A program made the translations under genes and the position numbers. Under the pieces are notes generated by a model. The model was not told the origin of the DNA and did not search any database. It worked only from the letters and a program-made list of their open reading frames with translations. From Gautieria morchelliformis (taxonomy: Eukaryota; Basidiomycota; Agaricomycetes; Gomphales; Gomphaceae): DNA of 64,000 nt. Each line of letters opens with the position of its first letter. Position 1 is the stretch's first letter. Positions 4,801 through 64,000 of the stretch are shown here, piece after piece. Location: contig WHVA01000249.1 in the NCBI GenBank assembly GCA_015179125.1, positions 92,316-156,315 on the forward strand. The letters run 5' to 3'.

Positions 4801-7800
4801 ACTTTTTATTACCTGTAGCTTCACCCATTTTATTCTCAAATTATAGAAAAGAAGAGGACGAAAGTACATGCCAATCTTATTGTTGGGATATAAATAAATT
4901 TTCTTTTGTCCCTCCCCGAGCGGCAGTGAGAAGTAACCAACAACTCAATGGTACCCCTCCTTGAGAGGGGGAGCCATATAATATATGGGAAAGTCACAAA
5001 GTCACAGAAGATGTAGGCTAAAAAACATTTAATGAAATCAGTGCACTCACCTTTGGAGCACAAGTTAAGTCCAGAACACAAGTTTTTGGTTGAAAACAGT
5101 GGAGTATGACCACAGTAAAGGATGTAAATATATGCAAACAAGAGGTGAATAAGTGACTGAGATTTTTCAAAAAAAAATATTTTAGCAAACAAAGACAAAT
5201 AAAGTGACAGTGATTAGTCACCAATGATGACTTAATGCAGCCTTGGTTGGAGGATGACTAACAGGGATTATGTGATATAATTGGTGGTAGGAATGTTTTA
5301 ATAACAGTGGAGGGGTGTTTGGAAGTTAATTTTTTCTAAGCATCCAGATCCTCTTTTTATATGATTTGTAGTGGTTGTGCACAGACCATGCAGAATTTTG
5401 TTGTATGGTTATAGTGAACAGACTGACATGGATATAGTGTAAAAACCAGACTGTGTGATGGAATTTTTTTCTTTTAGGGTCATGGACCACACCAGATTCA
5501 GTGACAAATCTGGGTTTGTAATAGATGGATTTACCGGTCTGTAGGTTACTGTGGGTGTAGTGACAGACGTGGATTTTTGTGACAGAATATTGTTATGGAC
5601 AGACATGGGCCAAATGTGACAGAATAAAAATTGATTTTTTGTCGCAAAATGTGTGCTTTGTATGTGGGTGTCTAGATGTTCAAAAATTATATCTGATATG
5701 TCATTTCTCATGACAGTGTGGGTGTTTTGATTTAGTTGAAAATATAATTTTCAGATAAAAGCTATTGTAGCATGTGTACAATCACTGTAAAATTAAGTGA
5801 AGCTTAATCTGTGATTGTTTATATTTCTAGACCTTGTTCTCATATAGAAAACTTTATGTTCATGGCATCCTGGTATTTATTATACAAACATAACATTCCT
5901 CAGGGTTGGTGACAGATTTCTTTTGTGTGTGTTTCTTTTGGCACGTGACATGTTATCTAAAGCGATGTTTATTTTCTTCAGAGACACATATTTTGTCTTT
6001 AAAACCTTCTAAGGTAAATGAGGATATTTAAGATATGTATATCTTTCCTTATTCTGAAAAACCTGAGCTTATTGATGAGTTAGCGGTGCACACTTCTTTT
6101 ATATATGATGCCCATCGATACACATTTATTTATATACTGCACCCATCAATGATTTTGATACATGTCTCTTTATAGCATCCAAAATAGCGTCATGATACAT
6201 CCTTTTAACTTTGACCTAACCAATGGTTCAGATGTACATGTTTTCTTTATCCCTTGAATACACCACATATTTCTGCTCCAAGTGAGCAGCCTTCAGGGCG
6301 ATGCTTTTTGGCCTGTCGATGAAGGGGGTGATGGTGTTGGGTTACAAAGTTGGGCAGGTTGGTGGGGAAAATTGAAATGGTATGGGTCGAAACTGCAGCT
6401 TGTGCCGCTTTCAATGATGTGTATGTCTCCAGTACTTTCTTTGTCCTCCTGTGTAAAGGGGAGATAGTGGATTGGCATGTCAACTCAACCTGAAAGTGGG
6501 TCAAAAAAGAGTTCGTGGGGATCTAGGCTGCTGCCCCAGTCCAAGCTGCTTATGCTCGTCCTGCCAGATTGGCATCTGTTGTGGGCTGGTGTTGGTGGTC
6601 AAACTCGAATGATTGGAATCATAGGGACTGATGATGTTGATGTATGAGTGGAGTACATGGCAGCAGAGCTGATGGCTCAGTTTGGAGTATGATGGTGCTT
6701 TGTCTGATAGCTGTGGATAGGTTCCACGTAGCGCAGTTTTTTAGCGGAGTTATCTGGTTGGTGATATTTTGAGATATCTGCCAGGGTTATTGTTTTTATT
6801 TGGTTAGATTCCTTGTAAGTGCGTAGCATCACATGGAGGAATAAGTTGATTTTTTATTTTTATTTTGGAAGTAAACACTTTTTGGTGGTTAGCTCCATTT
6901 AGGTGGTTAGATCTCACCACAGTCTGCAGGTAGTGAAAGTATTTATGGTCTGTTTATTTGTGAAAATATTGCATATCTAAATGAGATATGTGAAGTCCAA
7001 CCTAATGTAATAATTTGCTGATTACAGACAACAAAAGAAAATTAATCTATCATTGTGTATCAGCCATACCAATGGTGTCTTAATGACTTGCTATGTGGTT
7101 GGTTGATAGAATTATTAAATCAGATAGCAGCAGAGGTGGTTTGTTACCTGTTTGCAAGTCAGAATTTGCCATCTATATTTATTGGCAGCATCTACTATTG
7201 TATTATTTTGAGCAAGTCATTTGTACTTTAATAACAGAATTGTTGCAGGATGTTATGCGAGCATATGCACCAAACCTCTATGCCAGGTAGAGATTGTAGT
7301 GACAAAAGGAAAATGTGTTTTCTAGGCAAGCCTAGAGAGCAGTGTTTATGCAGTTTCAAAATAACCGAGTGCATAATCAGCTTGTATGTTATTTTCCCAA
7401 TTCAGTCAAAGCCACTATTTTTTAAGGAATGGTGGTCTTTAGACTTTGACAGGCTGCTTGAATTCTGAGTTGATAAGAGTGCAGCAGACATATATTGCAT
7501 TATCAGCCAATAGTACATGTCATTTTTGCATAAATAGTAGTGAGTTTTATACTTGAACTGACATTTGCATATGGTTTCGCACAGCTATTTTTTGCCTTTT
7601 GTTTTAGGCAGGAGGTGACCCGATCAGCAAGATATAAAAGTAGATTTATATCAGATCTACTTGAGTAAAATAAAAACTCCTTGCATTGTTATGCATGGAA
7701 CAAACCGAGGTGTTTATTTGACTCTAAAGTATTATATCATTTACAATATGGTCGGAAGGACATGTTTTTGTATAAATCATATGTATGTGAGGGCTATTCC

Positions 7801-8264
7801 TTGTTTGACTCAGTCAGACATGTGAACCATAGTCATCTGATATGAATGTTTTCCAAGCATTCATGTGCAGGCAGTTAAAGCATGTTGCTGTATGACTATA
7901 GCAGGGCCATTCAATTGAAGGCCTCTAGGATAGTATTACAGTACAGTGGATAAGTGAATTAACTTTGCCTGTTTGTGCTGTTGTCAAGCAGATTGATGAC
8001 ACATTTGTGTCGGTAATTTCTTTATCCCCATTCTCTGATACAGAGTCTTTTTTTATCTGGATTTTTTTGGTGTATTTTTTTTTTTTTTTTTTTGAATATT
8101 GGTTATATAGTTTTTTAGCAATAGGCTTTTTAAAGCATGTATTTTATTTAATTGTTTATTTGGTATATATTTGGGGTGGTATGTAACAGGTTACCACTAT
8201 GAATATTGTTTTCATTTTTTTAGTTTCAATTTTATATATAAAAGTGATAGTTGGATGGTAATAA
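4801..8264. other. AT-rich stretch without recognisable gene
   Basis: I see only short, low-complexity frames here. Local features are a run of T at about 8078-8093 and a GC-rich hairpin near 4955-4975 (CCCTCC/GGAGGG-type). It borders the 3' side of the Penelope-like RT and shares its AT-rich composition, so part of it may be untranslated sequence of that element. No LTR ends, tRNA or host exon could be supported. Confidence 0.5.
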
Positions 8265-10669
8265 TTATAATCCCTTCTTTTTTCTAGCTTGTAGTAGCAG
8301 AGAAAGTAGTTTAGGAGGTGCTCGGTAGCATATCATCACCGGTGTAGCCATTTTGGCAGGTAGTTCACCGATGTCTTTGATTGTTTTATGGAACTCATCT
8401 AGACTGTTTCCTAAAAACGAAAGTGATACGATTGGATTGTACATGATTTTCAGGATGAATGGTACAGATTGGTTTTTAGGGTTTTGTCTAAGATAGTGTG
8501 CTCTGTATGACCATTTGACTGAGAGGAAGGCTTTGTGAATGAATGCTAAAGTATATCCTCTTCTTTGTAGTCGAAGTTTAAACAGCTGGAGGATGTGCTC
8601 GTAGTCTGTTTCTCTTGCACTAAGTCTGACATATCTAATTGCTTCCCCTTTGATAAAACCATTTTTGTTGTGGTTAGGGTGATATGAATGGAAGGGTAGA
8701 TATGGATAACGATTGAGTTCTTTTTGGAATACTTTTACTAGAACACCAGCTGAGTTTTTATATCGCCCAAGTGTTACATCAAGGAAATTAACAGACTGTT
8801 GAGAGATTTCAGCAGTAAGCTTTATTGTTTGATCAATACTATTGAGCTCTTTTAGAAAGGTGAGGATTTGGTCATGCTTCGCTCTAAAGATTGCCAGTAC
8901 ATCATCAATGAAGTGGATGTAAAATAAAAGTCCTTTGCTTTTCCATTTGTTAACTGTTGCTCGCTCGAGCATGTGCATAAAGATATTAGCATAGGGAGGA
9001 CCAACAGGACTTCCCATAGCTGTTCCATTTCATTGCCTTTTGACAGAGCCATTAAATGTCATATATCCTGTGGTCAGGACTAGATGTAAGCTTTTGAGTA
9101 GAAATTCTCTTTTGGCATGACATTCCCTGTTGATTTCTCTAAGAAAGGTTTGCATAGCAAGCATTCCTCTGTCTATATCTATGTTAGGGTATAGTGCTTC
9201 AACGTCAGCTGTTACAAAGTGTATATCTTTGCTGTGTATGGGAATTTGTTGTCTAATCATATTAGATTCAAGCATGTTAATTCGCTCATTGGTATCTTTT
9301 AGCACAGTTCCTGTTTGAAGAGATAATGGATTCAGCTGTGCTGCAATCCATTCTGATAGATGAAAAGTCATCCAAGTCATGCTAGGTAGGATAGGTCGTC
9401 CTTTAACTGGCTGTTTTTGAACTTTGGCAGTGATGTAAAACCTCATGATTTTCCATTCATGCTTTTGTAATATCCATTTGACTTCTGGTAGTTCTAGATA
9501 GTCTTTGTATTCTTGAGTCAGTTTACTGACTTGGTGAAAGATTTCATTCATTTTTGTTTGGCCTTGGTCTAACCCGAGGAATGCCTCAGTACATTCTTCA
9601 TAGTTGTTTGTATTATTTAAGTGTGCCTCGCAGGCTTGTATATACCATTTGGTAGTTGTGACGGCATATCCAAAGTTTTTATCTGCTATGATAATCATGA
9701 TGTCTGGTCTGGTGTGAAGGAAGCTGTTAAGCTCCTTCCTTAGTGACTTGTGCCAATTATATTTAGGCATAGACCCTGGTTGGTTTATAAGTGTATCATA
9801 TAGGTTTTTTAGTCCTTTTTCTAGTTGTTTTGAACTAGATATCGGTGGGGTTTTTTTTGACTTGATCCACCAGTCTGGTATTTTGTCTTTCTCAGGATCC
9901 AGTTTGTTCTTCCTATATAACCATTGCCATCTGCATTGTTTGATAAATTCAGACATAGCATCATGAATAATTTGGCGTTCTGGTTTTGGTGTTGGAATAA
10001 ACTTAGTTCCTAAAGATAAGGCATCAAGGACTTTTTGTGGGATGATACAGTTGGTTAAATTATGGATTGTAGTTGGGCAAATACCACGTCTTTCAATGTG
10101 TGAGTTAACTTTTGACTGTGCATCAAGTTTTTCTGTTAGACGTATGATATTTGACTTCGATACAATTTTTTTAAGTCTGTTGGAATGTTTATTCCTTCTT
10201 CTATGTTTATGTATCAATTTTCCTTCCCCTTTCCCTTCCTCATCTGTTGCATGTCCTTCCTGGAGTAAGGAGAGTAAGTTACTTTCCTTTTCTCTGGTTT
10301 GACAGCCTTGCTGCCAGCTCTGACCTGTAATAGATTTTTTAAAGGTAGAGAGAGATGATGGGTGATATATGCTAACATTAGCTTGCTCCAGCTGAGTGCT
10401 TTCTTTGCCATGTACTCTTTTGGCTCCTTCTTCCCATTGTTCAGCACCTTTTTTCCTTCCTTGTTCTATCCATGCTGCAAACTGCTCATCCCAATGTTTA
10501 ATAACAGCAGAACACTCCACTAGAGATTGATCTAGGTGATCAGGGTGTTTGGCTGTCTCCTGATTGAGGGAATTCTTGAGTTCTCCAAGAAATTGCTCAG
10601 CAATAAGCCCTGAAGGTTGTATTATCTGAGCCAGGAGTGCTACATTTATTACAAATATCTAGACAACTA
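8265..10669 (-). pseudogene. Penelope-like reverse transcriptase, no GIY-YIG domain
   Basis: One minus-strand frame of about 800 codons, broken by a single TGA at 9030-9032. RT motifs in order: template-binding region (IIADKNFGYAVTTTKWY); motif A (FVTADVEALYPNIDIDRG); motif B (NGTAMGSPVGPPYANIFM); motif C (YIHFIDDVLAIF) with both aspartates. The region after RT (SVNFLDVTLGRY, PFHSYHPNHNKNGFIKGEAI, LRLQRRGYT) is typical of Penelope-like elements. The frame ends at KKKGL with no GIY-YIG endonuclease, as in EN-minus (Coprina/Athena-type) elements. The frame is open upstream to a TAG near 10670 but holds no ATG before residue ~190 of the longest ORF, so the 5' end is probably truncated. Codons are AT-rich, unlike the neighbours. 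The single stop may be a recent CGA or TGG change. Confidence 0.85.
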
Positions 10670-10976
10670 CTATTACTCCATAGTCTAATACTCTCTCATT
10701 ATAACTAGTCATACTAATACTCCTACTCATATCTGTTACAAGTATCTCTCCAAGTATCTGTTACTTGTAGTCTAATACTCTCTCATATGTATATATATCT
10801 TCAAGATGTTTAAATATATACAGAATCATCTAATAACATCTATCATTCTCCTTATAAATACTACTATATATTCCTATATGTTGTTATTAATACTCTTATA
10901 GTATATATTATATACTCATATATGCTGTATTACATAATCATTATGAATATCCTCCCATCATCATCAATCACAGATC
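10670..10976. other. AT-rich low-complexity spacer with short direct repeats
   Basis: No gene is visible. TAGTCTAATACTCTCTCAT occurs twice (about 10682 and 10770), and AAGTATCT and CTGTTAC recur between them. The stretch lies between the 5' end of the Penelope-like RT and the start of the antisense gene of chromovirus G1. No LTR could be delimited here, so the 3' LTR expected for G1 is absent or replaced. Confidence 0.5.
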
Positions 10977-12312
10977 ATGTCAGAGACACATGAAAATCCC
11001 ATTGGTTGGGTTGACACTGAGCTCGCACAAGCTGAGCATGAAGCGGAAGAACAGATGAAGGCCTTGCAGGAAAAAGATGACTTGCGCAGGAGTGCAAAGA
11101 AGCTGTGGAGAAGAAGCGGGGGGAGGACACTGAAAAAGCTGAAGCGAAATGGAAGGCGTAGGCTGAAGCTGCATGGATAGCGGAAGAGGCTAAGAAAGCC
11201 AAAGAGGCTCGGAAGGCCGAAGAAGCTCAGAAAGCCGAGGAAGCGTGGGAGGCGGAGAAGCAGGCCTTGAAGGTGAAAGCCGACAAGGCTCGGAAAGCAA
11301 TGGGGCCGGTTTTCGAACATGAGTGACAGTGGCTTTTGGATTTGCTGAGAGCTGAAACGATTCGACAAGCCAATGTGGATCAGAATTACCACATCCCATC
11401 GCCCGAGCCAATTGTAGTGGATTTGGCAACCGCACAGGCGCTGATTCTGGCCATGAAGCATGCGGCCGAAAGAAATGCGGCAAGGCAAAGCCGAAAGCCT
11501 CAGGGTCATGGAAGCAGAAAATGACCGAGGAGTCAGACGAAGAGGAGTCTGAGGAAGAGGTGAGTCTTCGGGTCGGGTTGGTTCGGTTTCTTTTTTGACT
11601 TATGTTTTCTATCATTTAGCGTGAACCTTGCGATGCGTGCAGGCGTCGCCAGACCCAGTGTCTATGCAGGAGGAAAACTGCATGCCAGCAATGCGTGGAC
11701 CGAAAGGTCGGGTGCAGCTTCCTGGATGGGAAGTGCAAACGAAAAGACGAAGATGCAACCGATGGACCGGGGCCAAAGAAGGCCAAAATGTCTCCGGTCA
11801 AGCCGTCGGGAGCCATACCGACGGTAGACATCCGTGCAGGGCCATTGGGAGTGGGGTTAAAACCCGATGGGTTTTCGGGAGCAGAAGTACCCCAAATGGT
11901 GAAGGATTTGCTGTCTCGTCAAAACGAGCATCTGGAGCAGAGCAATCACTTGCTCCAGGGAGTGTTGGATTTTGTGCAGCGGATCGAGCGGCATAATTCC
12001 AAGCTGAACAAGTGGCTCCACTTGTGGGCCACAGCAGCCGAGAACGTGTCCTTATGGATGGGAACAAGTTCAGATTGGGGTGGGTTCGATTTGGCTGGGG
12101 GTTCGGGTTCAGGTTCGGGGGGTGTGAAGGGGGAAAAGGGAGCGGAGGAGAAGGGTAAGGGGAAAGAAAAAGAGAGAGAGGAGACAAAGGGAAAAGTGGG
12201 GGTGGGTTTGGTTTCGGATTTGGATTTGGAAGATGGGAGCGGGGAAGATGAGCAGAATGACAGGGGAAAGGATGCGGAGGCGGATGAGGAAGAGACTATG
12301 GAAGCTAACTAA
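10977..12312 (+). pseudogene. Antisense accessory gene of chromovirus G1 (Zn2Cys6-type, coiled coil), copy 1
   Basis: ATG at 10977 opens an Ala/Glu/Lys-rich coiled coil. One frameshift (about 11100) and two or more stops break this exon. An intron of 60 bp follows (GTGAGT at 11560, TTTAG at 11619). Exon 2 (11620-12312) encodes CDACRRRQTQC, then CQQCVDRKVGC, spacing C-x2-C-x6-C-x7-C-x2-C-x6-C as in fungal Zn2Cys6 clusters. A basic patch (KCKRKDED), a second helix (LLSRQNEHLEQSNHLLQGVL) and an acidic Gly/Glu-rich tail come after it. It lies convergent to the minus-strand pol whose chromodomain ends near 12560. Two relatives lie at 33.2 and 60.7 kb. Binding of DNA or RNA is an inference from the cluster. 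Confidence 0.65.
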
Positions 12313-12671
12313 GTTACTGTTTTTGTTTTTTTTTCTATCCTAATGTGAATCTTTTTTCTTGGTACTTTTTGTTTCGGGATTGGGAACGGGAGTGAAATGA
12401 CAGACAGAGAAAGGAGGGAAAGCCGAGAACTACAAGCGTAGCTATTAGGCAAAATGGCCAAGAATAAAAAATAGCAAAAGATTGTTTTTTGTTTCTTTGT
12501 CTAACTAAGAAAGTGACCATAAAATGAGTGAAAAGGAATGGGGAGCCGAAGCTCAGGTTCAAGGAACCCATGGTCCAGGCTTGGCAGGGTAGGCCGAGTG
12601 AAAGTCGGTCACGATCTCGGCCATGTGGCCGAGCTCGGACTCAAGGACCTATGATGTCTCTTCATCGGTAC

Positions 12672-13942
12672 TGTCAAGATTGGTTTTTAGGTGTTAATAT
12701 CGTGTATTAGTGAACACAGTGAATTCCCGAATAACTTGTGCAAATAAGTATGCCGTTCGGCGAATAGGTGAACCAATAAATGTTCACAAGATAAGAGGGC
12801 TGCCCGAGCGGAGCTCGCCCTATCTACAGTCGTAGCGAAATAGCCTGTGGCACTTGACGATGTAACGTACAAGGTGTCACGGAAGGGTTGGCTAAGTAGC
12901 GACAATCCCTTCGCCGGTGAAGGTGCTCCTTCGGAGCCCTTCGCCGTCAGCACAGAAAATAGTTTGAAGGCTAAGGTAACGACAATGAAGTATGAGAACT
13001 CACCAGTGATGCCTAAGTCTTCTCCTGGTCAAAGATAGAAATCTCCAGGAAAAGGCTCAAGACGATGATCACAGCGAGGTCAAGTTTGCACAAGATGGAC
13101 GACGTATGATAATTGAACTGGAGAATATACATGCGAATGTAAACTACTTATATCGAATGCTTGTAAGGCATCAGCGAATAGGAAAGAGGCCGTTGTGAGT
13201 CAGGGTTGGATAGGGGTGCGCAGTCATGATACTAAGTAGATGGAATAAACATACAATAGAGTGAGGGAAGAGTGCGAACATGAAACGACGGAGAGTAAAG
13301 GTGACGAAGGCACTTATGTACAAAACCATGTCTTGGGACCCACATACATGCTACCCTGCACGGACTCTTCGTCTACTGGGTTGATCCTGCACGACCTACG
13401 GAAGGGACGTCCTGTGAACACACTTTGGCCATATGAACACCCAAAGGGGCTGGATTAAGAAGATGATGGGGTTAGTGATGAACCATCATGCCAGGTAAAT
13501 GGTATCGATTGTATTTGATGGCGTGCCTGCTGGCGAAATGCGCGAGCAGCGAATAGCGGTTCAGAGAAATGCGAGGAAGGGCGAACGGAGATGACATAGG
13601 GGAGAAGTGGTTGAAGTGGAGGGCGAAGCCAAGCGAACACGGGGGAGGAGTGGCGAAAGTGGAAATGGAGATAACAAGGTCCAGGAAATACACAAGTCAT
13701 GACAGTCCGATCATAGGAACACCATCGAAAGAGGGTTGAGCAGAGGAGGTGATAGGCCCAGTGATGACTGCCAAGTCAGTCCAAGGACATCGATCGTGCT
13801 TCGACGGCATGGCTATGGTAAATGGCGCGAACAGCGAGGATCGGTTGCCGAACACAGCAAGGGCAATCGGAATGAACACGAAAGTGGAGTGAGAAATGGG
13901 AGAACAGAGCATCTGAGTATGGGAAATAAATGCGTCATGACA
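12672..13942. repeat. Family A LTR pair with internal region deleted, TSD GGTAC
   Basis: A complete family A LTR (12672-13704, TGTCAAGATTGG...GTCATGACA) is followed, after a few bases, by a second partial copy of only the 3' part of the same LTR (about 13708-13942, ending AAATAAATGCGTCATGACA). GGTAC flanks the whole unit (12667-12671 and 13943-13947). The simplest reading is an element that lost its interior and most of one LTR after inserting. The uninterrupted target is seen in chromovirus G3 near 62020 (TCGTCGGTACCTTCGTAACC). Confidence 0.85.
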
Positions 13943-15122
13943 GGTACCTTCATAACCAGCCCAACAGACAAGGTACAGGAGGTTACAGGGTCTATGGCGT
14001 CGGTCAATCTTGGAATCAAGAATTTTGGAAATCTCGTACTCTGTCTCACCATCAATCTCGACTGGAGGCGGGGGAGACTGAACCCGGTTTGGGATGGTAT
14101 TTGGGATTGCGGGTTCGAGCATGGAGACATGAAAGACCGGGTGGACTGCCCGAAGGTTATCAGGGAGGTGTAGAATGTAAGCTCAGGATCCAGCCTGGCC
14201 AATAATCTCAAAGGGACCGAGGTACTTCTCAGCCAGCTTCTTCGAGGGCCGGGTTGTCCGGAAGAACTGCGCTTTTACAAACGCTGAGGATCCTATTGCG
14301 AACTTGGGAGCAGGAGCGCGACGCGCGTTGGCCAAGACCTGATACCGAGATTGAGCGGATTTAATATTTGCTCTTTCAGGGCAGCGTGAAGCTGGTCAAG
14401 GTCAACTGCGAAGTCTCAGGCTCGGGAGGATGTGAGGTCCCATTCAGGGTGAACCGTGAGGTTCAGGTTGTATCCTTTGTTGGCAAAGAAGGGTGATATG
14501 CCTGTAGTTGCACTGGGAGCATTGTTATACGCAAACTCGGCTAGTGGCAGCAATTAGGACCAGTTGTCCTGCTGATAATTGCAATACACACGGAGATACT
14601 GTTCCAGAGTTTGGTTGACACGTTCGGTTTGACCGTCACCTTCGGGATGGTATCCCAAGGTGAAATGCAGTTTCATGTAGAGAGCCTTGCCCAGGGAATG
14701 GAAAAAGTGTGAAACGAATTCCGAACCTCGGTCGGATGTCACATGGCTAGGGACACCGTGGTTCGAGAAAACATGCAAGACCAACAGGCGGGTGAGGTCT
14801 GCAGATGTGACCATGTCATAGGTCGGGATGAATATGCTCTGTTTGGTTAAGCGTCAAACTACTACAAGGATTGCAGTGAATCCCGAAGACACCGGCAACT
14901 GCTCAATGAAATCCATGGAGATGGAATTCCAAGGTTGCTCGGGTATCGGAAGCTGCTGCAGGGAGCCGTAAGGCCAATGACACTGTGACTTTGAACGCAA
15001 GCAGGTGGTGCAGGGCTTGCAAAGTTGATGACAAAAGACCAAAGTGCAGGCCATGTGTATTCCCGTCTAATGAGTTCTAAGGTCTTGTTTTGACCGAAAT
15101 GTCCCAAGAGTACATGATCATG

Positions 15123-15775
15123 TGTTACAACTGTGCAGTTCCGATTTCCGCCACTCAGTTCCGCACACATTCCGACCCTCCGATAGTTCCGATATTCCGC
15201 CCCTTGTTTTACTTCCTTGTTCTTTTGACTCTATTACTCGGACCCACCGAACCCGTTTCACAGTACAGCACAACCATATGTCCAGTCCACCTTGTAGTTT
15301 CGTTGACAGATATGTTTTCTGACCCCTTGTTCTTTTGCCATTGTTTTACCTCACCCTGAACCCCCCTTGTAGTCCCCTTGTTCCCAATTAGTTAGTTACC
15401 CTGTATGTCTATCCTACTTCCGCTCTCTCTGGAATTTGCTTAGTACTACACCCTTACATGTTGTCTCAGCTCTTTGTATAAAAGCCTCTCATGTATGTCT
15501 GTTATTCTGCAATCAGATAATCACCTTCAATACTTGATTTCCTTCACTCTATCTCCTGTTCTTAGCATAGCGAGTTTAGCAAGACCTCTGTCTCTCCGCC
15601 TTCCACCTTCTGACTCAATTCCAACTCAAGTTCCGACTTATCTTTAGTTCCATACTTTCCGACTTCCGACCCGCATTTTGAAATACTTAGGACGATAGTT
15701 TATTGGGGGCGCAACACATAAGTTGAAGCCATTGTCCTTTCCAGTTCCAACTTGCGGAAATCACGATACATAACA
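15123..15775. repeat. Solo LTR, family B (653 bp), plus orientation, TSD TCATG
   Basis: It begins TGTTACAACTGTGCAG and ends TCACGATACATAACA. TCATG is duplicated at 15118-15122 and 15776-15780. It sits in the integrase zinc-binding region of the G1 pol. It contains the family signature TATAAAAGCC followed by CTGCAATCAGATAATC, as in the 5' LTR at 26497-27145. Several C-to-T-like differences from the other copies suggest it is an older insertion. Confidence 0.92.
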
Positions 15776-16765
15776 TCATGTTTGTACTGGAGTACTCGGG
15801 GCCGGAGATTGTCGGCATCCAGAACATATATGCGGCCATTGAGGCGGAGGAAACCGTCCTCGGTTTGCGTCCATCTCGGGTCAGAACTATCGCCGAGATG
15901 CTTAGCGGCTATGGGATCAGATACCAGGTTGGCTAATATGTCAGCATGAAGCTTCTCAGAGTCCATCACAATGCTCACCCGGAGAACGGGTTCAAGCAGA
16001 CAAGTTGCCCGGAGGCATTCCAACAGTTGTTGATTAGTGAAAATTGGTCAGAAGTTTTGCAGGTTGACTGAGCCGTAGTCATTACCTCCCTCTTTAAGGT
16101 AGACATCCCATCGTCTAGTTAGAGTGTCAGGTTTTGTACCAAGCTTTCTGGGACGGAACCGAATAATGAGGTTAAACTGCGAGAGGAATTTGGACCAGCG
16201 GGCTTGTCATCGGGTTAGCAACTTTGTGGTGGCAAAATGCTCCAAGTTTTTATGATCAGTGACAATGTTGATAGGGGAGCTGGAGCCCTCCAAATAGTGT
16301 CTCCAACGTTGAAATGCTTCAAAAATTGCCAGTAGCTCTTTATCATGGACATTGTAATTTAGTTCGGCACCAGAAAATGTTCGGGAATGGAAAGCGACCG
16401 GGTGAGGACGCCTTCATCATCGAACAAGGACAAGATTGCGCTGAGGGCATAATCCGAGGCATCAATTTCCACGACCATAGGCCAGTCAGGAATCCAATGT
16501 GACAGGATCGGAGCCAAAGTGAAAGCTTCTTTGAGGTGGTTGAAAGACTTTCGGCATTCTTCGGTAAACGCCCAAGGGGTGCCTTTATGGGTAAGCCAGG
16601 TTAGGGGGACCGTGATATCGGAATAGTTATAAATAAAGTGGCGGTAAAAATTGGCAAAGCCAAGGAAGGACTGTATGTCTTTTACCTTCCGAGGTTCGGG
16701 CCAATCACGGATTGTCTGAACTTTGTCTTCGGACATGGTAAAGCCGTTGGCCGACAGCATATACC

Positions 16766-18332
16766 CTAAGAATTACTACCGAAACAGACAAATCAAGGGG
16801 GATGACATAAAAGTCTACAGAATGGGTGTGACCATCGGGGAAATGGATAAGTAGCTCTACAGCTTCAGTAATTACCGAATTTGTACTACCATCAAACAAA
16901 TGGAGCGGGCTCGGATCTACGGATCCGGTTTTCAGACTATTTCTACTTACAAAAACGGATTCAATGAAACAATGAGTAGAACTGGAATCTACTAGGGCTT
17001 TAAACATTTGGCTGGGGAGCAGAGATGAGGATAAACTAACTAGAAGAGAATTCGGGGAACAGAGAGCAGAAGCATTGATTCTTACCTCCAGCCGAGTCAA
17101 CGTGACCCTCAGTATGTGTGGAGGCCGTAGGGCCGCTGAATATTTTTTTGTGCCCGAAGCCAAGCTATCAGCTTTATCATTGGACGTCTTCCTGTCAGAA
17201 GCCGTGGCTGCCCAGGCCGACATGGCTCTCGGACACTCCTTCGCACGGTGGCCACTCTGCGCACATACTAAGCAAAGGTTGTTATCCATGTGGCGCTGGC
17301 ATTCTGCAGGCGTGAGTTTGCCATCCTTGCTGAGTCTGTCTGGTTCTGGTTTTTTCTGACCCTCAGACTGATTATTCCCTTTTGGCTTGTCCTTGCCTTT
17401 GCCTTGGTTATTACCGGCATTGGCGTTGGAGTTGCCGGAACCTTGACCTTGATGTCGGTCGTTGCTCTGGGAGCCTCAGTTTTGGTTGTTATGATATTCA
17501 AGTAACGACGTTAATGATATCACTCAGATCCGAACCTAAAAATATACTGACGTCACCGAACCATACAATCCCCACAATCCATGCCCGTGTCCACACGCAG
17601 ACACATAGAAATATCCCCGAATCTCCTGACTCGCATATACGCGACGCCGGACCAATACATTATCACGCACGCGCACAGGACACACCAAGTCGATCAGCAT
17701 CACATTACAAATGTCGATCCCATCAATCTCGATTGAGAAACCGACCCGGAATACAAATGCCCGCTTAGGCACCAATTCAATTGCGACCGAGACACGATAT
17801 GCATCCGATCGTCCCTGAGCGGCTCAAGCCGTAGCTCCATCATTTCCCCTATACCTCGCACACATGTCCTTCCACACCATCGTCTTATCCACAACAAATC
17901 CTTAGCATTCCCTTGTAGTATTCATTCGAGAGTTCACTCCAGACTATGCTCCACACCCCCCTATCTCTATGTCACATACCGTATGAATCGTATCAACGCC
18001 GAGTCCCTTCCAGTAGTTAAATAGTACGAACAAATGTAACTGTAAAAGAAGAATAACAATAGTTTTACCTCTCCACCGTCTCAAGATTCCTGATCGAAAT
18101 AGTCCCCGTAGTATAAGCAATCCTCTCAGAATTCAGACCTCTACTCGATTCAGCTTCACTCGAGGCTTGAATAAAACCCAAACACATTTATATCAACTCT
18201 TATCATTGGTTGGCTGACTTGTTGTTCTTGGCCTTGGGTTTGGGAGCGGAATGAGTCTTGCGAGAGAGTTCACCGCGACGTTCCCAATACCTCTGGTCAA
18301 TTTTCTGAATGAGGTCTCGGAGGTCGTCAAGG
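16766..18332 (-). pseudogene. Chromovirus G1 gag end and protease remnant
   Basis: Minus-strand: gag segment at 18211-18332 (TLDDLRDLIQKIDQRYWERR), then, after the solo LTR at 17487-18205, a Gln/Asn-rich linker, a CCHC knuckle (CLVCAQSGHRAKEC) near 17250, and an A7 run at 17143-17149 at the place of the slippery site of element B. Here gag and protease share one frame. The protease reads ALVDSSSTHCFIE, so the DSG active site has become DSS. It stops in mid-protease at the deletion joining RT at 16765. The gag N-terminus is replaced by a foreign LTR fragment at 18333. Inactive. Confidence 0.8.
17487..18205. repeat. Solo LTR, unnamed family (719 bp), TSD TTGGT
   Basis: It begins TGTTATGATATTCAAG and ends CAACTCTTATCA. 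TTGGT is present at 17482-17486 and 18206-18210. It splits the gag of chromovirus G1. The sequence is not related by eye to families A or B, and no internal region of this family is recognised in the window. Confidence 0.85.
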
Positions 18333-27145: not shown

Positions 27146-27147
27146 GT

Positions 27148-27158
27148 ATTATCTGATT
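27148..27158 (+). promoter_or_regulatory. Putative self-priming primer binding site of element B
   Basis: ATTATCTGATT begins two bases after the LTR and is the perfect reverse complement of AATCAGATAAT at 26881-26891, the inferred RNA 5' end. Tf1/sushi chromoviruses are known to prime minus-strand DNA from the first 11 bases of their own RNA. I could not fit a tRNA 3' end to this site, though I could not search tRNA sequences. Confidence 0.65.
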
Positions 27159-27178
27159 CCCACCCGATAACTATCGCT

Positions 27179-31500: not shown

Positions 31501-32574
31501 CACCTCAATCATTATGGACACCGAGTCTCTCCATTCCGACATCCGTTCCGCACTCCGTTCCAACCCCATCTCCGCAGCCCACCTCGATAACCCACCCAGT
31601 CCTGGATGGTCCCTCGATTCCGACAGATTTCTCTGGTACAAGTCCCAGATCTACGTTCTGGATACCAATGATCTACGACTTCACGTACTCCAGCAAAGCC
31701 ACGATCATCCGCTCTCAGGACACCAAGGCCAGAACAAAACCCTGGACATAATCCGACGTACCTACACTTGGCCCCTTCTCCGCATGATGGTCCAAGACTA
31801 CTGCAAGTCATGCACCACCTGTATGCGTGCCAAGCCTCAACATCACAAACCCTATGGCCTCCTGAAGCAACTTCTGATCCCGGAACAACCGTGGAATTCG
31901 ATATCCATGGATTTCATTGAGAAAATTCCTAAGTCATCTGGTTATGATACCATTCTAGTGATCGTTGACCGCCTCACAAAGCAGTCCATCTTTATTCCGA
32001 CCTATGACACCATCACTTCTGCCCAGCTCGCACAACTCTTCATGCTCCACGTCTTTTCCAAGCACAGAATTCCTTCCCATGTGACTTCTGACCGTGGATC
32101 AGAATTCATGTCCTCCTTTTTCCGCACGCTCGGCAAGGCTCTCGACATGAAACTCCATTTCACTTCCGGTTATCATCCCGAAGGAGACAGACAAACGGAA
32201 CGTACTAATCAGACCCTTGAGCAGTATCTCCATGTCTATTGCAACTACCAACACAGCAATTGGTCCGACCTTCTTCCGCTTGTGGAATTCGCTTACAACA
32301 ATGCACCTTCTGCTACCACCGGAATTTCACCCTTCTACGCCAACAAAGGCTATCACCCGAATCTCTCCATCCACCCTGAATGCGACCTCGCCTCTGCAAG
32401 AGCCCGAGATTTCATTGTGGTACTCGACGACCTTCACCAGCACCTCCGAGAGAACATCTCCGCTGCCCAGAAGAGATACCAAACCTCCGCCAATCGGAAA
32501 CGCCTTCCGCAACCGGCATTCGAGATTGGCGACAAAGTCTTCATCAAAGCTGAAAATTTCCGCACCACTCACCC
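28586..32574 (+). pseudogene. Pol of chromovirus B (PR, RT, RNase H, integrase), interrupted and 3'-truncated
   Basis: Protease: [40 protein letters not shown], a one-base loss near 29660 (relatives suggest [16 protein letters not shown]), then [18 protein letters not shown] and [14 protein letters not shown] solo LTR sits at 30179-30871 in RT/RNase H. RNase H: LETDASNYTLAAIL, DHKNLEYFATTKIL. Integrase: HDHPLSGHQGQNKTL with CKSCTTC; SMDFIEKIPKSSGY; SDRGSEFMSS; YHPEGDRQTERTNQTLEQYL; ending at FIKAENFRTTHP. The chromodomain and 3' LTR are absent because a truncated inverted LTR joins at 32575. Outside these breaks the frame is long and well kept, indicating a young element. Confidence 0.9.
30179..30871 (-). 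repeat. Solo LTR, family B (693 bp), minus orientation, TSD CTCAC
   Basis: It starts TGTTACGTATCGAG and ends CGGTCGTAACA on the plus strand, the reverse of the 5' LTR at 26497. CTCAC is duplicated at 30174-30178 and 30872-30876. Removing it with one CTCAC rejoins pol as DITVPLT-RLTRKGAPW. It therefore inserted after element B was in place. Confidence 0.93.
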
Positions 32575-33099
32575 TGAGGGTTAGTCGGAACTTGAGGTGG
32601 AATTGAGGCGGAAGATGGAAGGCGGAGAGATGGAGGTCTTGCTGGACCCGCTGTGCTAAGAACAGGAGATGGAGCGAAGGAAATCAAGTATCGAAGGCGA
32701 TTATCTGATTGCAGAATAACAGACATACATGACAGGCTTTTATACAAAGAGCTGAGACAACAGGTAATGGTGTAGTACTAAGCAAATTCCGGGGGAAGTG
32801 GAAGTTGAGTAGACAATGCGTGGGAACTAACTAATTGGGAACAATGGGACTACAAGGGGGGTTCAGGGTAAGGTAGAACAATGGAAAAGAACAAGGGGTT
32901 GGGAAAACATATCTGACAACAAAACACAAGGAGGGCCGGACATATGGTCTTGATGAACGATGAAGCGGGTCCGGTGGGTCCGAGTAATCGAGTCGAAAGA
33001 ACAAGGGAATAGAACAATGGACGGAATGTTGGAAATATCGGAGGGGCGGAAAGTGTTGCGGAACTGAAGGTCGGAAGTCAGAAATGAACGGTCGTAACA
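32575..33099 (-). repeat. Truncated family B LTR (3' LTR of a minus-oriented element)
   Basis: It ends in full form (GAACGGTCGTAACA at 33099), but the other side begins inside the LTR (GGTTAGTCGGAACTTGAGG), fused to the integrase frame of element B. There is no duplication. Purine-rich sequence lies directly beyond 33099 and an antisense accessory gene starts 120 bp further, so this is the 3' LTR of another copy joined by rearrangement. Confidence 0.8.
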
Positions 33100-33112: not shown

Positions 33113-33220
33113 AAGGTCGAGCCCCGCGAGACCACAGGTCGGATCACGTGACTTGTGAACAAATGCGTCGGAGTTTGAAAGATAGGCGGGAAGCAGAATG
33201 CGTCTTGTTTCAATCTACCA

Positions 33221-34297
33221 TGAACTCCTCACTCGATTTCTCCAAAATGTCCAGTGCTGAGATGAAGAAGCATTTCGACGATATGCTTGCGCAAAAGGAA
33301 CTGGTGGAAAAACAAGCGGCCGAGGAAGCTGCGTGGAAAGAGAAGGAACGGTTGGAGGAGGAGCATAGGGAGAAGGAGCGGAAAGAACAGGAGCGTTGGG
33401 ACCAGGAGTGGAAGGAGAAGGAGGAACGGGACCATAAACGCCGCGAGGAGGAGTCGCGCCTCCGCGAGGAACAGCGGAAACGGGATGCGGCCAAAAAAGC
33501 TGCGGAGGACAAGGCTGTGACGGAAAAGGCAGGGAAATCCCGGGTGAGTCAGAGATGTCGTGTGAGGTGTTTCCGGAGCTCACGGAAAGAACTGCCAGAG
33601 GGTTGTAGAATCCAAGGGGGAGTCAGAAACGGAAAGCACTGCGGAAAGCACACCGCTTCCAGAGAGCAAGGGGAAGCAGAAGGGAGCTGCTCCCATGCTG
33701 AACGTTGTTGCGGAGTGGAAACGGAGGGTGGACGAGTTCCAGCAGGCTCGGAAGGATAAGATGGCCCAGATACTGGAGTTGCGGGAGTTGGGGCTGGAGA
33801 ATCCCACGACAAAAAAGCGGAAAACGAGGGATGATGACGAGGAAGAGAAAGCCCCGTGCGACCCATGCAAAACCAAGGGACTGGATTGCATGTGGTCTAA
33901 AAATCCACTGGAGACCTCCTGCGAGCAGTGCCGAGACAAGAAGAGGTGCTGCGTTGTGGACGGTTGCGCCGCGAGGGTGGAAAGGAAAAGGCGCAGGGTC
34001 GAGACGGAGGGGCCTGAAACCCCCAAGTCGAAACCGGGACCGAGCGGAAAAAAGGTCGCGGAAGGATTTCCGGTGACCTGAAACTCGGACACAGCGGTAC
34101 TCAACCACTTCTCCATGGTGTCGCCGCTGTTTGACATCGCCGATTCGTTGAGGGGTATCCGGAAAACCCAACGCTGGATCCGGAACCTTCTTGCGGAGAT
34201 GGCGGTTGTTCAGGAACAGCAGTTGTTGTCATTCCAGAACCAAATGACCGTCATGTCGACGGTTTTGGAACAATTTACTAGTACTTGGCGGTCATAA
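33221..34297 (+). pseudogene. Antisense accessory gene (Zn2Cys6-type, coiled coil), copy 2
   Basis: ATG at 33221 (an in-frame ATG also lies at 33148). Exon 1 encodes a long, highly charged coiled coil (KEKERLEEEHREKERKEQER). A short intron begins GTGAGT at 33544 and ends near 33616. Exon 2 reads acidic/Ser-rich sequence, a helix (VAEWKRRVDEFQQARKDKMA), a basic KKRKTR, then CDPCKTKGLDC and CEQCRDKKRCC, spacing C-x2-C-x6-C-x10-C-x2-C-x6-C. After one TGA (34079-34081) the same frame continues with a last helix (LFDIADSLRGIRKTQRWIRN) to 34297. It is the best preserved of three copies. It lies 120 bp inside a minus-oriented family B 3' LTR, so it is antisense to its element; the pol expected to the right is missing. 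Confidence 0.7.
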
Positions 34298-37299: not shown

Positions 37300-37574
37300 G
37301 CAGAGGGTCTCAAGTACGATAAGCTAATTCGATATCTGAACTGAGGAGCTACTGTACATGGACTGGAGGTCTATATAGTCAAGTAGCATGCAGGGTCGCA
37401 AAGAGAACATGATCGGATCAACAGTCAGGGGGAAACAAGGGTCAGGTAAACGGGGAACTAACTAGAAAAGAGAATCAGGGGTGATGGGAAGTGTGAAGGG
37501 AAACCCAAAGGAATCCGAGAATAACCCGAGGTTCCCGAACAAGAGCCGAAGCCGAGCCTCGGTCCGGATTCAGG

Positions 37575-59926: not shown

Positions 59927-60489
59927 TGTTACGATACGATCCGTCGTAAGGTTGACCGAGGTTGGGAGCGAAACCCGAGGTAAGGTCCGAGGTTACGGGG
60001 CGAGGTTTGGATGGGGAAGTCGGAGAGGGACTAGGCTTCAGCTTATGTGCTGCGCCGACCCTACGCATGAGTCCCAACTTCGGAGGCAAACGAATAAGAG
60101 GTGAGGTTTGGCTTAAGAGGCGAGGCTTAGAAACTAACTAGGGATCGAAGTTATACGATAGTTTATTTTCAGACTGAGGAGTAGGAATGCATACAGGGGG
60201 GTTTATATACGAGCGAGGGTACGAGTCAGGGGTGAACATATTAGTGGAGGTCAGGGCGAGGTCAGGGGAGCGAGGTCAGGGCAAGGTAATATATGAATGA
60301 TGCGTGATGGAGCGGAGTCAGTAACTAAGGGAATACGGGCATGGGATCAAGGTCGGATATGAGCTCTAGCTCTAGCTCGGGCTCGGGCGCAGGATAAGAA
60401 TCATATGTACTCGGGCACGAGTATCACAAGGCTCGGGCTCGGAAGAAAGTTATACCAGTAAGTAACCGGCCAAAGGCCGGGTTCTTACA
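59927..60489 (-). repeat. 3' LTR of chromovirus G3 (563 bp)
   Basis: Plus strand runs TGTTACGATACGATCC to CCGGGTTCTTACA; in the element's own orientation it starts TGTAAGAACC and ends CGTATCGTAACA. It cuts the copia 2 integrase; the target bases on this side are TTGAG (59922-59926). In element orientation TATATAAACC is followed about 34 bp on by AGTCTGAAAAT, a possible RNA start as in family B. The opposite LTR is outside the window. Confidence 0.8.
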
Positions 60490-60502
60490 GTATCCCCTCC
60501 TT
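60490..60502 (-). promoter_or_regulatory. Polypurine tract of chromovirus G3
   Basis: On the minus strand AAGGAGGGGATAC abuts the LTR start TGTAAGAAC. It corresponds to AGAAGGGAGATAC at 33100-33112, and the sequence inside both tracts (GTCTCG.GG) is also shared. Confidence 0.6.
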
Positions 60503-60660: not shown

Positions 60661-61796
60661 ATGGTGCGCCCCCAACCACTATTTAACTCTGCTATTGACG
60701 AAAACAGCGCGAATAACGTGTTCGACCAGACCCTGCTGTCTGAGGAGGACGGTCCCTCGGGCGAGGTTATGCCCGAGGTTCGACCTGAGGTGATCCCGTG
60801 GCCCATCGAGGATGCGAGGGCCATAGATATGCGGGAGCCATGGCAGGAAGGGCCCAAAGGCAAGAAGGTGAGTACCGTCGTAGTCTGGTCATGGACGCTG
60901 CTGACTTGTGTAGTATAAACGCATGCTGTTCTCGTACCACCCCACCGACTTGTCCCTATATGGGTACAAGCTCACCGACGGAGGACCTCGTGAGTGGCAA
61001 CTCGCACCAAGGCCGAGGCGAGGTGCGCGCGCTGCGAAGAGCGCAACTATATGTGCCTTCGGGCCGTTAGCCTCAACTTCGGCCTCGCTGACCAGGGTGC
61101 CTGCGTGTGGTGCAGGACGCGATCTTTGGGCTGTAGTATAGCCCATGGTCTTCGCAGCAAGCGAACCCAGGGAAAGGTCAGGCGAGTGAGGCAGGCAGGA
61201 AGCGGGTGAGGAGTGAGGACAGCGAGGATGGGGTCGAAGAAAGAGACCAAGGTTCGGGACGATGTTGAAAACGACGATGACTCAAGTGATTGGGTCGAGC
61301 GAAACTTGGAGGTGAGGGTGGAGCGGATGGAAGCGAGGTTGAGTGAGGAGAAGGGAAAGGAGGCTGGGGGAGCGAGGCAGAGTGAGGGGAGCAAGGTTGA
61401 GGAGGTGAGGCAGAGTGAGGGAAAGGAAACCGAGGTCGAGGAAGGTCGGAGGGCGAAGAAGGACAAGAAACGAAAAGGTCGGAGCGAAGTGCGGAGATGA
61501 GGGAGTTGATAGCGGCAGTGAGGGATGTGGGGAAGAAAGTTGGCGAGGTTGGGGAGAGGGTGTGCGAGTTGCTGGGGGAGTTTAGGGCTGCGAATGACAG
61601 GATGAACAGGGCGGATGTGGAGTTCATGAGGATAAGGAGGAGGCGGAATTACTTGAAGCAGATGCAGGGGGCGAGAGACTTGGCAGATTATGGGGGACAT
61701 GGGGGTCTGGTGGAGCAAAGTAGCAGTAGTAATGAGGAGGAGTCAGGTGAGGGTAGCGAGGAGAGCGAGGGAGAGGATATGAGGATGTTGGAGTAA
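60661..61796 (+). pseudogene. Antisense accessory gene of chromovirus G3 (Zn2Cys6-type, coiled coil), copy 3
   Basis: ATG at 60661 (MVRPQPLFNSAIDENSANN) opens an acidic/Pro-rich exon. An intron follows (GTGAGT at 60869, GTGTAG near 60914). Exon 2 (YKRMLFSYHPTDLSLYGYKL) shifts frame near 60990 and then encodes CARCEERNYMC and CVWCRTRSLGC, spacing C-x2-C-x6-C-x16-C-x2-C-x6-C. After one TGA (61207-61209) come an Arg/Glu-rich coiled coil (NLEVRVERMEARLSEEKGKE), a basic KKDKKRKGR, another frameshift at 61497, a helix (MRELIAAVRDVGKKVGEVGE) and an acidic tail ending MRMLE. It lies between pol and 3' LTR of G3, antisense to pol and convergent with it, the same place as copy 1. Confidence 0.7.
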
Positions 61797-61904: not shown

Positions 61905-64000
61905 AAACGATCATAGAGCAGTCAAAGGCCCCGGCTTGCCCGGGTAAGATTCGTGGAAGTCAGTGACCAGCTCCGAGGCATGATCAAGTTCGGAAGCGAG
62001 GATCCACGAGGTTTCTTCGTCGGTACCTTCGTAACCAGTCCACCTAACAAGATAGAGCAGCTTGCAGCTCTTTCATCTATTATCGATCTTCAAGTCGAGG
62101 ATTTCGGAGACCTCAAACTCGGGCTGGCCGTCGATAATGACTGGGAGCGGAGGCGGCTGAACTCGGTTCGGGATGGTGTTGGGCGAGGCTGGTTCGAGCA
62201 TAGATATGTGGAATACTGGATGGACTGAATGCATGTGTTCTGGAAGTCGAAGGGTGAAGGAGTGAGTACCTGCTCGGGAAATGATCTCAAAAGGACCCAA
62301 GAACTTCTCGGCGAGCTTCTTGGTAGGCCGAGTTGTTCTGAAATACTGTGCCTTTACAAAGGCGAGGGATCCTACTTGGAAATCAGGAGCGGGTTTGCGG
62401 CGAACATTGGCCGAGGCTTGGTAGGTCTTCTGAGCCTCGAGGATGGCGCGGCGAAGTTCTTGGTGTAGCTCATCCAGGTCAACCACGAAGTCTCGAGCTC
62501 GTGCCGAGGCCAGGTTGCGCTTGGGGTGGACTGCGAGGTTCGGGTGGTAACCCTTATTAGCAAAGAATGGGGATATGCCGGTGGTTGCGCTAGGCGCATT
62601 GTTGTAAGCGAACTCGGCTAGGGGAAGGGGCGAAGCCCAATTGGACTGTTGATAGTTGCAGTATATCCTGAGGTACTGTTCCAAGGTCTGGTTAGCACGC
62701 TCAGTTTGACCGTCACCCTCGGGGTGATATCCCGAGGTGAAATGCAACCGCATGTCCAAGGCTTTCCCTAGAGAACGCCAGAAGTGCGAGATGAACTCGG
62801 AACCCCTGTCCGAGGCGACGTGCGAGGGGATCCCATGCTTGGAAAAGACATGAAGGACGAAGAGGTGAGCGAGCTCTTGCGAGGTTATCTTGTCGGTGGT
62901 TGGAATGAAGATAACCTGCTTAGTGAAGCGGTCAACAATCACTAGTATGGAGGTGAACTCGGATGAAGGGGGGAGCTGCTCAATGAAATCCATAGAGATG
63001 GAATTCCAAGGCTTCTCGGGAACGGGAAGTTGTTTGAGGAGACCATAGGGCTTGTGACGTTGCGGCTTGCTTCGCATACAAGTGATGCACATCTTGCAAT
63101 ACTCCTTGACAAAGGATCTAATCCCTGGTCAAGTGTAGTCTCGTCGGATCAGCTCCAAGGTCTTGTTGACCCCGAAGTGTCCCAAGAGAATGTGATCGTG
63201 CTTGTATTGCAGGATGCGAAGTCGAAGGTCTTGGGCTGCTGGAACATAGGTTCGGTTGTCAAGCTTGAGAAAACCCTCGGGGTCTGTGGTCCACCTTGGG
63301 TCATTAACCAAGCCGAGGTGCAACTTGGCTATAGGGTCCAAGGGGAGGTTTGCTAGTATGTCAGCTCAGATCTGCTCGGTATCAAGCAGCGAAGCGGTTC
63401 AGAGTACGACGGGAGCGAGGTTAGTAGCTCTAAGGGACGATGCCAGCTGGTGTTGAGTAAACACTGGCCGTAGGTTCTGTGGGTTTATGGTGGCATAGTC
63501 GCTATTCCCCTCTTTAAGGTAGGCGTCCCATCGTCTAGTGAGAGAGTCAGGCTTCGTTCCGAGGTGACCAGGTCGGAAACAGATGGCGAGGTTGAATTGG
63601 GAGAGGTATTCTGACCACCGAGCTTGTCGACGGGTCAAGAGCTTCGTAGTTGAAAAGTATTCGAGGTTCTTGTGATCAGTGATAACGTCAACAGGGTCGC
63701 CAGAGCCCTCAAGGTAGTGTCGCCAGCGTTGAAACACTTCAAAAATTGCTAGGAGCTCCTTGTCATGAACATCGTAGTTGAGCTCAGTAGAGGTGAATGT
63801 GCGGGAGTGAAAGGCGACGGGATGAAGTTCGCCTTCCGAGGTTCGCAGTGATAAGATTGCCGCTAAGGCATAATCTAAAGCATCAGTCTCTACGATTAGT
63901 GGAAGGTCAGGAATCCAGTGGGTAAGGATAGGAGCAGTAGTGAACGCCTTCTTCAACAGGTTGAAGCCTGTCGACAATCCTCGGAAAAGTTCCAAGGGTA
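61905..64000 (-). pseudogene. Chromovirus G3 pol (RNase H, integrase, chromodomain), continues past right edge
   Basis: Minus-strand frames: RNase H (IVETDALDYALAAILSLRTS; DHKNLEYFSTTKLLTRRQAR), spacer, H2C2 (CITCMRSKPQRHK), integrase core (SMDFIEQLPPSSEFTSILVI; ASDRGSEFISHFWRSLGKAL; YHPEGDGQTERANQTLEQYL), barrel (FRTTRPTKKLAEKFLGPFEI) and chromodomain (FEVSEILDLKIDNR, then after a TGA KSCKLLYLVRWTGYEGTDEE) to about 61905. The 339-codon integrase frame 62073-63092 is intact. A stop near 63100 (DYT-stop-GL) and the chromodomain TGA are compatible with former CGA. It is less decayed than G1. Confidence 0.88.

Follow-up and report, generated by a model that had tools for sequence, protein, structure and literature searches.

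Positions 10,977 to 12,312 of the DNA analysed here, a 64,000-nucleotide stretch of the Gautieria morchelliformis genome (hereafter the window), are a decayed copy of an antisense accessory gene of chromoviruses. The gene belongs to a group of fungal Ty3/gypsy chromoviruses, in which it lies on the strand opposite to pol, separates pol from the 3' LTR, and has a short leader of its own and a single intron. It encodes a protein under purifying selection that carries a six-cysteine cluster resembling the fungal Zn2Cys6 type, and the product may regulate the element itself.

The window holds three copies (Table 1), which represent three diverged families with 438, 607 and 309 first-look gene candidates for families 1, 2 and 3, respectively; 150 candidates per family were scored. 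The start codon (10977-10979), intron (11560-11619) and stop codon (12310-12312) of copy 1 lie exactly where a preliminary description had placed them, and the coding part of exon 2 runs from 11620 to 12309. Exon 1, of 583 nt, is frameshifted, and stops interrupt the frame of the ATG from 11178 onward. Exon 2 remains open and has all six cysteines. A DNA search with copy 1, in which the best 40 of 154 candidates were scored, listed 42 matches, the window itself among them; identity in the others is 71-85%.

The homologous stretch in most of 20 related loci (L009-L028) is continuous and corresponds to window positions 10952-12671, 13943-15123 and 15775-16500. The segments 12672-13942 and 15123-15775 are gaps with respect to these relatives and represent later insertions into the copy-1 pol. 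The element has lost its own 3' LTR, polypurine tract and part of the leader, being cut at 10952 with other sequence beyond. In family-1 relatives the region left of this point comprises the leader, a reversed polypurine tract (GTACCTCCCCCTTAT) and then a 450-bp LTR (TGTTAAGG...CATAACA) that is missing from the window copy. This order indicates that gene and LTR are part of one minus-strand element, in which the gene runs antisense and separates pol from the 3' LTR. Penelope-like reverse transcriptase ORFs, by our reading of the sequence, occupy 8265-10658 on the minus strand to the left of the gene, and stretches left of the truncation point recur in L012 and L027. A family-1 LTR, approximately 89-92% identical, is present at 37139-37588 with a gag-like minus-strand ORF just to its left; it may represent the copy-1 element's 5' end, split off by nested insertions.

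Copies 2 and 3 are broken as well, by stops or loss of frame. The six-cysteine layout put forward in the preliminary description holds for all three copies, but the spacing given there, with a loop of seven residues, applies only to copy 1: it is x2-x6-x10-x2-x6 in copy 2 (ATG 33220) and x2-x6-x15-x2-x6 in copy 3 (ATG 60661). Likewise the gene is opposite to pol in copies 1 and 3, as had been claimed for each copy, but not in copy 2. The latter is a fragment, a partial LTR and most of the gene, fused to the same-strand pol of a different family-2 copy; in intact relatives of copy 2 gene and pol are convergent. The plus strand at 26497-32575 carries a family-2 element with gag-pol pieces sharing 81-93% protein identity with L029 and L030. 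It is interrupted by a solo LTR at 30172-30871 (CTCAC flanks) and meets the copy-2 fragment at about 32575. Throughout the window and L009-L032 the six-cysteine pattern is confined to copies of this gene, bar one poly-Cys low-complexity run at 56.5 kb. Among these copies is a family-2-like cluster, CDSCEAWGLRCIWSTNPWESSCKRCWGYKEVMC, at L025:8426 (+) within another insertion, with a last spacing of seven rather than six.

Table 1. Features of the three gene copies and their surroundings, in window coordinates.
Feature	Position	Strand	Remarks
Copy 1 (family 1), exon 1	10977..11559	+	Glu/Lys/Ala-rich; coiled-coil-like by our reading; decayed
Copy 1, intron	11560..11619	+	GTGAGT...TTTAG, 60 nt, phase 0
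Copy 1, exon 2	11620..12312	+	Open; Zn2Cys6-like cluster, basic stretch, long helix, acidic tail
Copy 1, six-Cys cluster	11629..11715	+	C-x2-C-x6-C-x7-C-x2-C-x6-C
Copy-1 element, pol C-terminal end	12571..12671	-	Convergent with gene; pol residues 300-334 at 12675-12571
Later insertion in copy-1 pol	12672..13942		TGTC...GACA, GGTAC on both flanks; solo-LTR-like; relative at 3510-4485
Copy-1 element, remaining pol	13943..16772	-	Integrase, RNase H and RT parts; decayed
Solo LTR of family-2 element, inside copy-1 pol	15123..15775		
Partial family-2 LTR	32574..33099		Directly before copy 2; reversed polypurine tract next; junction with another family-2 element
Copy 2 (family 2)	33220..34269	+	3' truncated, two stops; intron 33544-33598; Cys cluster from 33857
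Copy-3 element, 3' LTR	59927..60490		91.7% match to L031 LTR 7742-8303
Copy 3 (family 3)	60661..61796	+	Intron 60868-60913; Cys cluster starting at 61024; frame of exon 2 lost
Copy-3 element, pol	61917..63971	-	Convergent with gene

Near-intact elements have the order LTR, polypurine tract, antisense gene, pol, gag, LTR. In L030 (oriented coordinates) the two LTRs, 771-1473 and 8119-8821, are 703 bp long and 100% identical, the gene is on the plus strand at 1554-2798, and pol and gag are on the minus strand. L031 and L032 share this layout with LTR pairs 97.7% and 99.8% identical, respectively. L032 has an internal deletion, and one LTR of L029 is largely absent from the stretch examined. The Pfam families RVT_1, RT_RNaseH, Integrase_H2C2, rve and Chromo score above cutoffs across the pol pieces of L029, L031 and L032, which cover families 2 and 3. 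The single family-1 fragment scanned (L013) gave rve and SH3_Tf2-1 only, both under cutoff, the remainder being assigned by homology. With RT/RNase H, an integrase with a C-terminal chromodomain, and LTRs, the carrier elements are Ty3/gypsy chromoviruses.

For families 2 and 3 the strand relationship was assessed by pairing the best 150 gene loci per family with the best 150 of approximately 2,800 pol C-terminus candidates. Gene and pol are convergent in 76 of 76 family-2 loci and 91 of 91 family-3 loci for which this pairing gave a pol C-terminus at most 4 kb away; the remaining gene loci (74 and 59, respectively), with none of these 150 pol loci nearby, are uninformative given the number of pol candidates. 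For family 1, alignment places pol on the minus strand to the right of the gene in 18 of 20 loci, with L009 inverted and no pol adjoining the gene in L014.

The leader also displays conserved features. In the 16 aligned family-1 copies CTGCTTCTTG is invariant and TAAGCTTTG is present in 13, whilst eight possess an exact inverted repeat, CTTATGGCC...GGCCATAAG, in the interval between polypurine tract and ATG. Families 2 and 3 have the TATA-like sequences AAATATAG and GATAAAAG close to the ATG, and a comparable inverted repeat reads GGTC...GACC in L029 and GGCC...GGCC in family 3. We regard the leader as a candidate promoter for the antisense gene, located outside the LTR. In L018 (oriented coordinates about 4070-4170) the stretch from the polypurine tract to the promoter-like box is inverted compared to other copies, apparently as a result of inversion between the arms of the inverted repeat.

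Splice sites and reading frames are best preserved in family 2, where the donor GTGAGT and acceptor AG occur in all 23 copies. The introns, of 51, 53, 54, 55 and 57 nt, fall into all three classes modulo 3. Exon 2 has eight lengths among the 22 complete copies, every one divisible by three, and the length of exon 1 is divisible by three in 20 of 23. Family 1 (21 copies) is older. A GTGAGT or GTAAGT donor is found in 19 copies, with L027 and L028 changed, and the AG acceptor in all 21; the intron is 47-60 nt, exon 2 is a multiple of three in 13 copies and exon 1 in 10, L016 being cut within exon 1. In family 3 (seven copies) the intron is 46-47 nt, the donor GT is altered in L054, exon 1 is in frame in all seven and exon 2 has an in-frame length in three. 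The intron appears to be of the spliceosomal type and is apparently spliced.

The gene is under clear purifying selection across the fifty copies analysed, of which 22 belong to family 2, 21 to family 1 and 7 to family 3. The median pairwise Nei-Gojobori omega is 0.20 for family 2 (22 copies; L049, with a truncated start, was excluded), 0.22 for family 1 (21 copies) and, for the seven family-3 copies, 0.24 in exon 2 and 0.29 in exon 1, against 0.87-1.46 in wrong frames, with the caveat that absolute values are rough because the method ignores transition bias. The choice of copies was not random. Family-2 copies were hand-picked from the best-scoring list (20 of the 150 listed, 19 of these 20 being stop-free in the listed match; by our count 133 of the 150 listed loci are stop-free in the matched stretch), family-1 copies are among the best DNA matches and family 3 is represented by seven copies. 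The cluster cysteines are retained at all six positions in 22 of 22 family-2 copies, as is a seventh cysteine, in 20-21 of 21 family-1 copies (one position 20/20 plus a gap) and in 7 of 7 family-3 copies. Many arginine codons of family 1 now specify Trp, Gln, Cys or His, changes that probably represent CpG decay after insertion. The preliminary description had proposed to check whether further copies are antisense between pol and the 3' LTR, whether they keep the six cysteines, and what dN/dS they give. The results favour its reading on each point, with ratios of about 0.2 pointing to selection on the protein. The contrary outcome that it named, with matches falling chiefly on single-copy host genes outside LTR elements, did not occur in this genome. 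Its overall reading of an accessory gene is supported.

What kind of protein is encoded? The family-1 product (L018, 435 residues) comprises a charged part, the cluster, a basic stretch (PKKAK), a long helix and an acidic tail. The Zn2Cys6 spacing is C-x2-C-x6-C-x(5-12)-C-x2-C-x(6-8)-C; the loops of families 1 (x7) and 2 (x10) are within this range and that of family 3 (x15) is outside. Scores against Zn_clus (PF00172) are 18.3 bits for L018 exon 2, 17.1 for the whole L018 protein, 16.2 for L030 exon 2 and 12.7 for P0003, all below the Pfam gathering cutoff of 21 bits. In a Pfam scan with E up to 1, Zn_clus was matched by 18 of 21 family-2 exon-2 proteins (best E 1.7e-4) and 5 of 8 from family 1, and was the sole family matching many members, the runner-up in family 2 reaching 3 of 21. 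Neither TRP28 (PF04195) nor bZIP was matched in 8 family-1 and 21 family-2 members (E up to 1) or in one family-3 protein (E up to 10). A single-sequence search of the PDB returned seven rows, none significant: five Zn2Cys6 proteins (PUT3 twice, Cep3, LAC9 and GAL4; E 0.12-7.8) and two phosphatases. With profiles, family 1 gave PUT3 ranked under VPS4B, and for family 2 the one PDB match was U-actitoxin-Aeq5a (E 3.7), with no Zn2Cys6 protein. The confidence of the AlphaFold models is poor over the cluster (block means 46-61 for family 2 and about 39-50 for family 1), and the family-2 model had no significant fold match.

Alignment of family 1 with family 2 using hhalign, spanning the cluster and basic stretch, gives E 1.2e-6 and a probability of 91, so a common ancestor of these families is very likely. 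Profile comparison of family 3 gives E 6e-4 (probability 28) against family 1 and E 0.4 (probability 0.1) against family 2; it is by place, strand, layout and the six cysteines that family 3 is linked to the other two. Protein searches for relatives in other fungi were weak, covering 8000 candidates picked by shared words, 1059 for the family-2 region (no match) and 1646 (one match), and gave G. morchelliformis proteins alone (P0001, P0002 and P0004). P0001 is an annotated relative of family 1, 41% identical across 60% of L018, with an alignment break at residue 193/194 that matches the exon junction of the copy-1-type gene. It retains five of the six cysteines, the fourth being Phe. Its locus is decayed: a six-frame alignment matches residues 340-511 at 100% and the rest at 73-87%, with stops inside.

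Does the element carry a motif that such a protein might recognise? All 512 strand-collapsed 5-mers were counted blind against synonymous-codon shuffles. CGGAA ranks first in family-2 gag-pol, with 83 occurrences against 28.7 expected in L030 and 81 against 24.4 in L029, near-identical elements that amount to one observation. It has z values of 2.9 to 7.5 in all 10 family-2 gag-pol ORFs of at least 230 codons (L029, L030 and the window) and is first in eight. It is first in the family-2 LTR too (20 against 2.0 expected from dinucleotide shuffles), and is raised in the gene in 23 of 23 copies (mean 18.1 against 8.6). L030 has 105 occurrences on the gene strand and 30 on the opposite strand in 7,348 bp, with 12 bp the commonest direct spacing (10 pairs). 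Three control elements contain no comparable 5-mer (best z 3.4-3.8; 6-mers up to 4.2). Other high words in a scan of 91 ORFs are CTACC 7.4 and ACAGA 6.0 (both in L028), CCCCC 5.4 (window 53949) and CCCGC 4.8 (L029), several of which sit in visible repeats.

Family 3 differs. The top two words in gag-pol are CCTCG and CCGAG (CTCGG), z 4.7-6.2, and not CGGAA. In the LTR both also rank high, numbering 8 and 9 against 2.1 and 1.6, counts that the most frequent words of shuffled sequences reach as well, and the family-3 genes have no clear 5-mer signal. The bare triplet CGG shows no enrichment in the LTR of family 3 (17 against 16.8) and a deficit in the gene (15 against 28.3). Family-1 signals are weak and inconsistent: TCGGG and TTCGG have mean z 1.2-1.3 in the gene, and CTCGGG occurs 10 times against 1.7 in the pol of L017. 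A motif restricted to the LTR is ruled out, since CGGAA, though densest there, is enriched across gag-pol and the gene. General CpG enrichment is not the cause either, for CpG in family-2 gag-pol, 433 against 413.5 (sd 8.6), is far below the threefold excess of CGGAA. Nor is the motif exclusive to gene-bearing elements. Another chromovirus lineage, with pol approximately 40% identical (L022:7951-9900 and L024:8382-9842, both minus), is equally rich in CGGAA (35 against 10.6 and 23 against 7.8; z 3.1 in L011:7386-8303), with little strand skew in L022 and L024, and the part of this lineage examined contains no Zn2Cys6 pattern belonging to it. CGG is a Gal4-type half-site. In view of this other lineage and of the CGG counts in family 3, the motif need not be the target of the protein, and we treat the link between them as a lead.

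We think it somewhat more likely than not that the gene encodes a regulator of the element, binding CGG sites in its own family and raising element transcription or protecting it from silencing. The predicted product looks like a nuclear protein, with its long charged part, Gal4-like cluster, basic stretch, long helix and acidic tail. It would enter the nucleus, dimerise and bind CGG-containing sites of its own family, so that transcription would be raised, or shielded against silencing as VANC does for VANDAL transposons. A DNA-binding product that combines a long helix with an acidic tail would suit a role in regulating its own element, although zinc or DNA binding and any effect on element or host are predictions. 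The antisense placement would let the intron persist because the genomic RNA that is reverse transcribed is the other strand and is unspliced at the intron, a layout known from HBZ and from artificial retrotransposition markers. It may also decouple the timing of the regulator from gag-pol. Since the gene has an open frame in elements whose two LTRs are the same or almost the same, activation or anti-silencing would be our first choice over repression. We are doubtful of a more elaborate version, that the antisense Gal4-type protein of each family recognises its own family by a CGG motif spread over the whole element (CGGAA in family 2, CTCGG in family 3), and counters silencing or drives transcription by coating it. 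If true, this would represent a self/non-self recognition code within retrotransposon coding sequence, co-evolving with its reader.

Three other readings should be considered. Protein or antisense transcript might instead limit sense transcription, giving a milder and longer-lived element, in the way that HBZ opposes Tax or Ty1 controls its copy number. Place and strand are those of HBZ-type genes, a transcript running into pol would pair with genomic RNA, and silencing by dsRNA is discussed in a part of PMC7264820. The coding parts of gene and pol do not overlap, however, and omega of 0.2, conserved cysteines and frame-preserving indels demonstrate that the protein matters and not the transcript alone; we judge such repression unlikely. 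Less plausible still is a structural zinc module, nucleocapsid- or Cep3-like, for integration targeting, nuclear import or RNA packaging. Cep3, which has a six-Cys cluster in a non-transcriptional role, is among the weak PDB matches, but a separate antisense strand and an intron would be an odd route to a particle component, and the element already has a zinc-knuckle-like motif in gag, by our reading, and the integrase chromodomain. That many copies are decayed might suggest a host Zn2Cys6 gene fragment carried passively, shared by descent and functionless for the element, which is very improbable given omega of about 0.2, conserved splice sites and leader, occurrence in three families and frames that are open where the two LTRs of an element are identical or nearly so.

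The proposed regulator can be compared with several known systems. Antisense ORFs of plant LTR retrotransposons have been known for years, to our knowledge with no function assigned. Sections of two papers (PMC11963269, PMC7264820) describe the plant aORF-3R, in maize Grande (gene23), rice RIRE2 and Silene Retand, as conserved antisense ORFs in the interval between pol and the 3' LTR; for Grande they give a promoter upstream of gene23, a nuclear product and a suggested DNA-binding role. The Gautieria gene is likewise a conserved antisense ORF in that position. The plant genes belong to the non-chromovirus Retand lineage and have TRP28 (PF04195) or no known domain, whereas the Gautieria gene is fungal, is carried by chromoviruses, has a Zn2Cys6-like cluster and an intron, and does not match TRP28.

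HBZ of HTLV-1 is a spliced bZIP protein. According to passages in the same papers, it and other deltaretroviral antisense proteins are encoded antisense near the 3' LTR, are nuclear and have a role in the virus life cycle (PMC11963269, PMC7264820), the HBZ promoter being inside the 3' LTR (PMC7264820). Strand and proximity to the 3' LTR are shared; the bZIP protein of an animal retrovirus, expressed from within the LTR, differs from the Gautieria product, which has no bZIP match. VANDAL is not an LTR element. Its VANC protein in Arabidopsis, as part of PMC5735166 sets out, is element-encoded and acts on a short family-specific motif that is dense in its own element in the same orientation, mainly in non-coding tandem repeats. 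CGGAA is similarly dense in family 2, but occurs in coding as well as non-coding parts, and its binding by the Gautieria protein is putative. Fungal Zn2Cys6 proteins of the Gal4 type (PF00172), in which the cluster is N-terminal, share the six-Cys spacing, the downstream basic stretch, the long helix and the acidic tail; the Gautieria cluster is central, has sub-cutoff Pfam scores in the proteins listed above and is carried antisense by a retrotransposon.

A fungal antisense Zn2Cys6 gene of an LTR element was not found in the titles and opening lines of abstracts surveyed, mostly of papers outside subscription, a partial coverage that makes this weak evidence for novelty. New in comparison with the known antisense ORFs are the occurrence in fungal chromoviruses, a recognisable Zn2Cys6-like domain, the intron and a possible target code. 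The Gautieria product adds to these antisense ORFs one with a recognisable fungal regulator domain, selection, abundant families and a candidate target motif. If the regulator reading is true, fungal chromoviruses, like deltaretroviruses, would have independently gained an antisense nuclear regulator, which would bear on how such elements attain high numbers.
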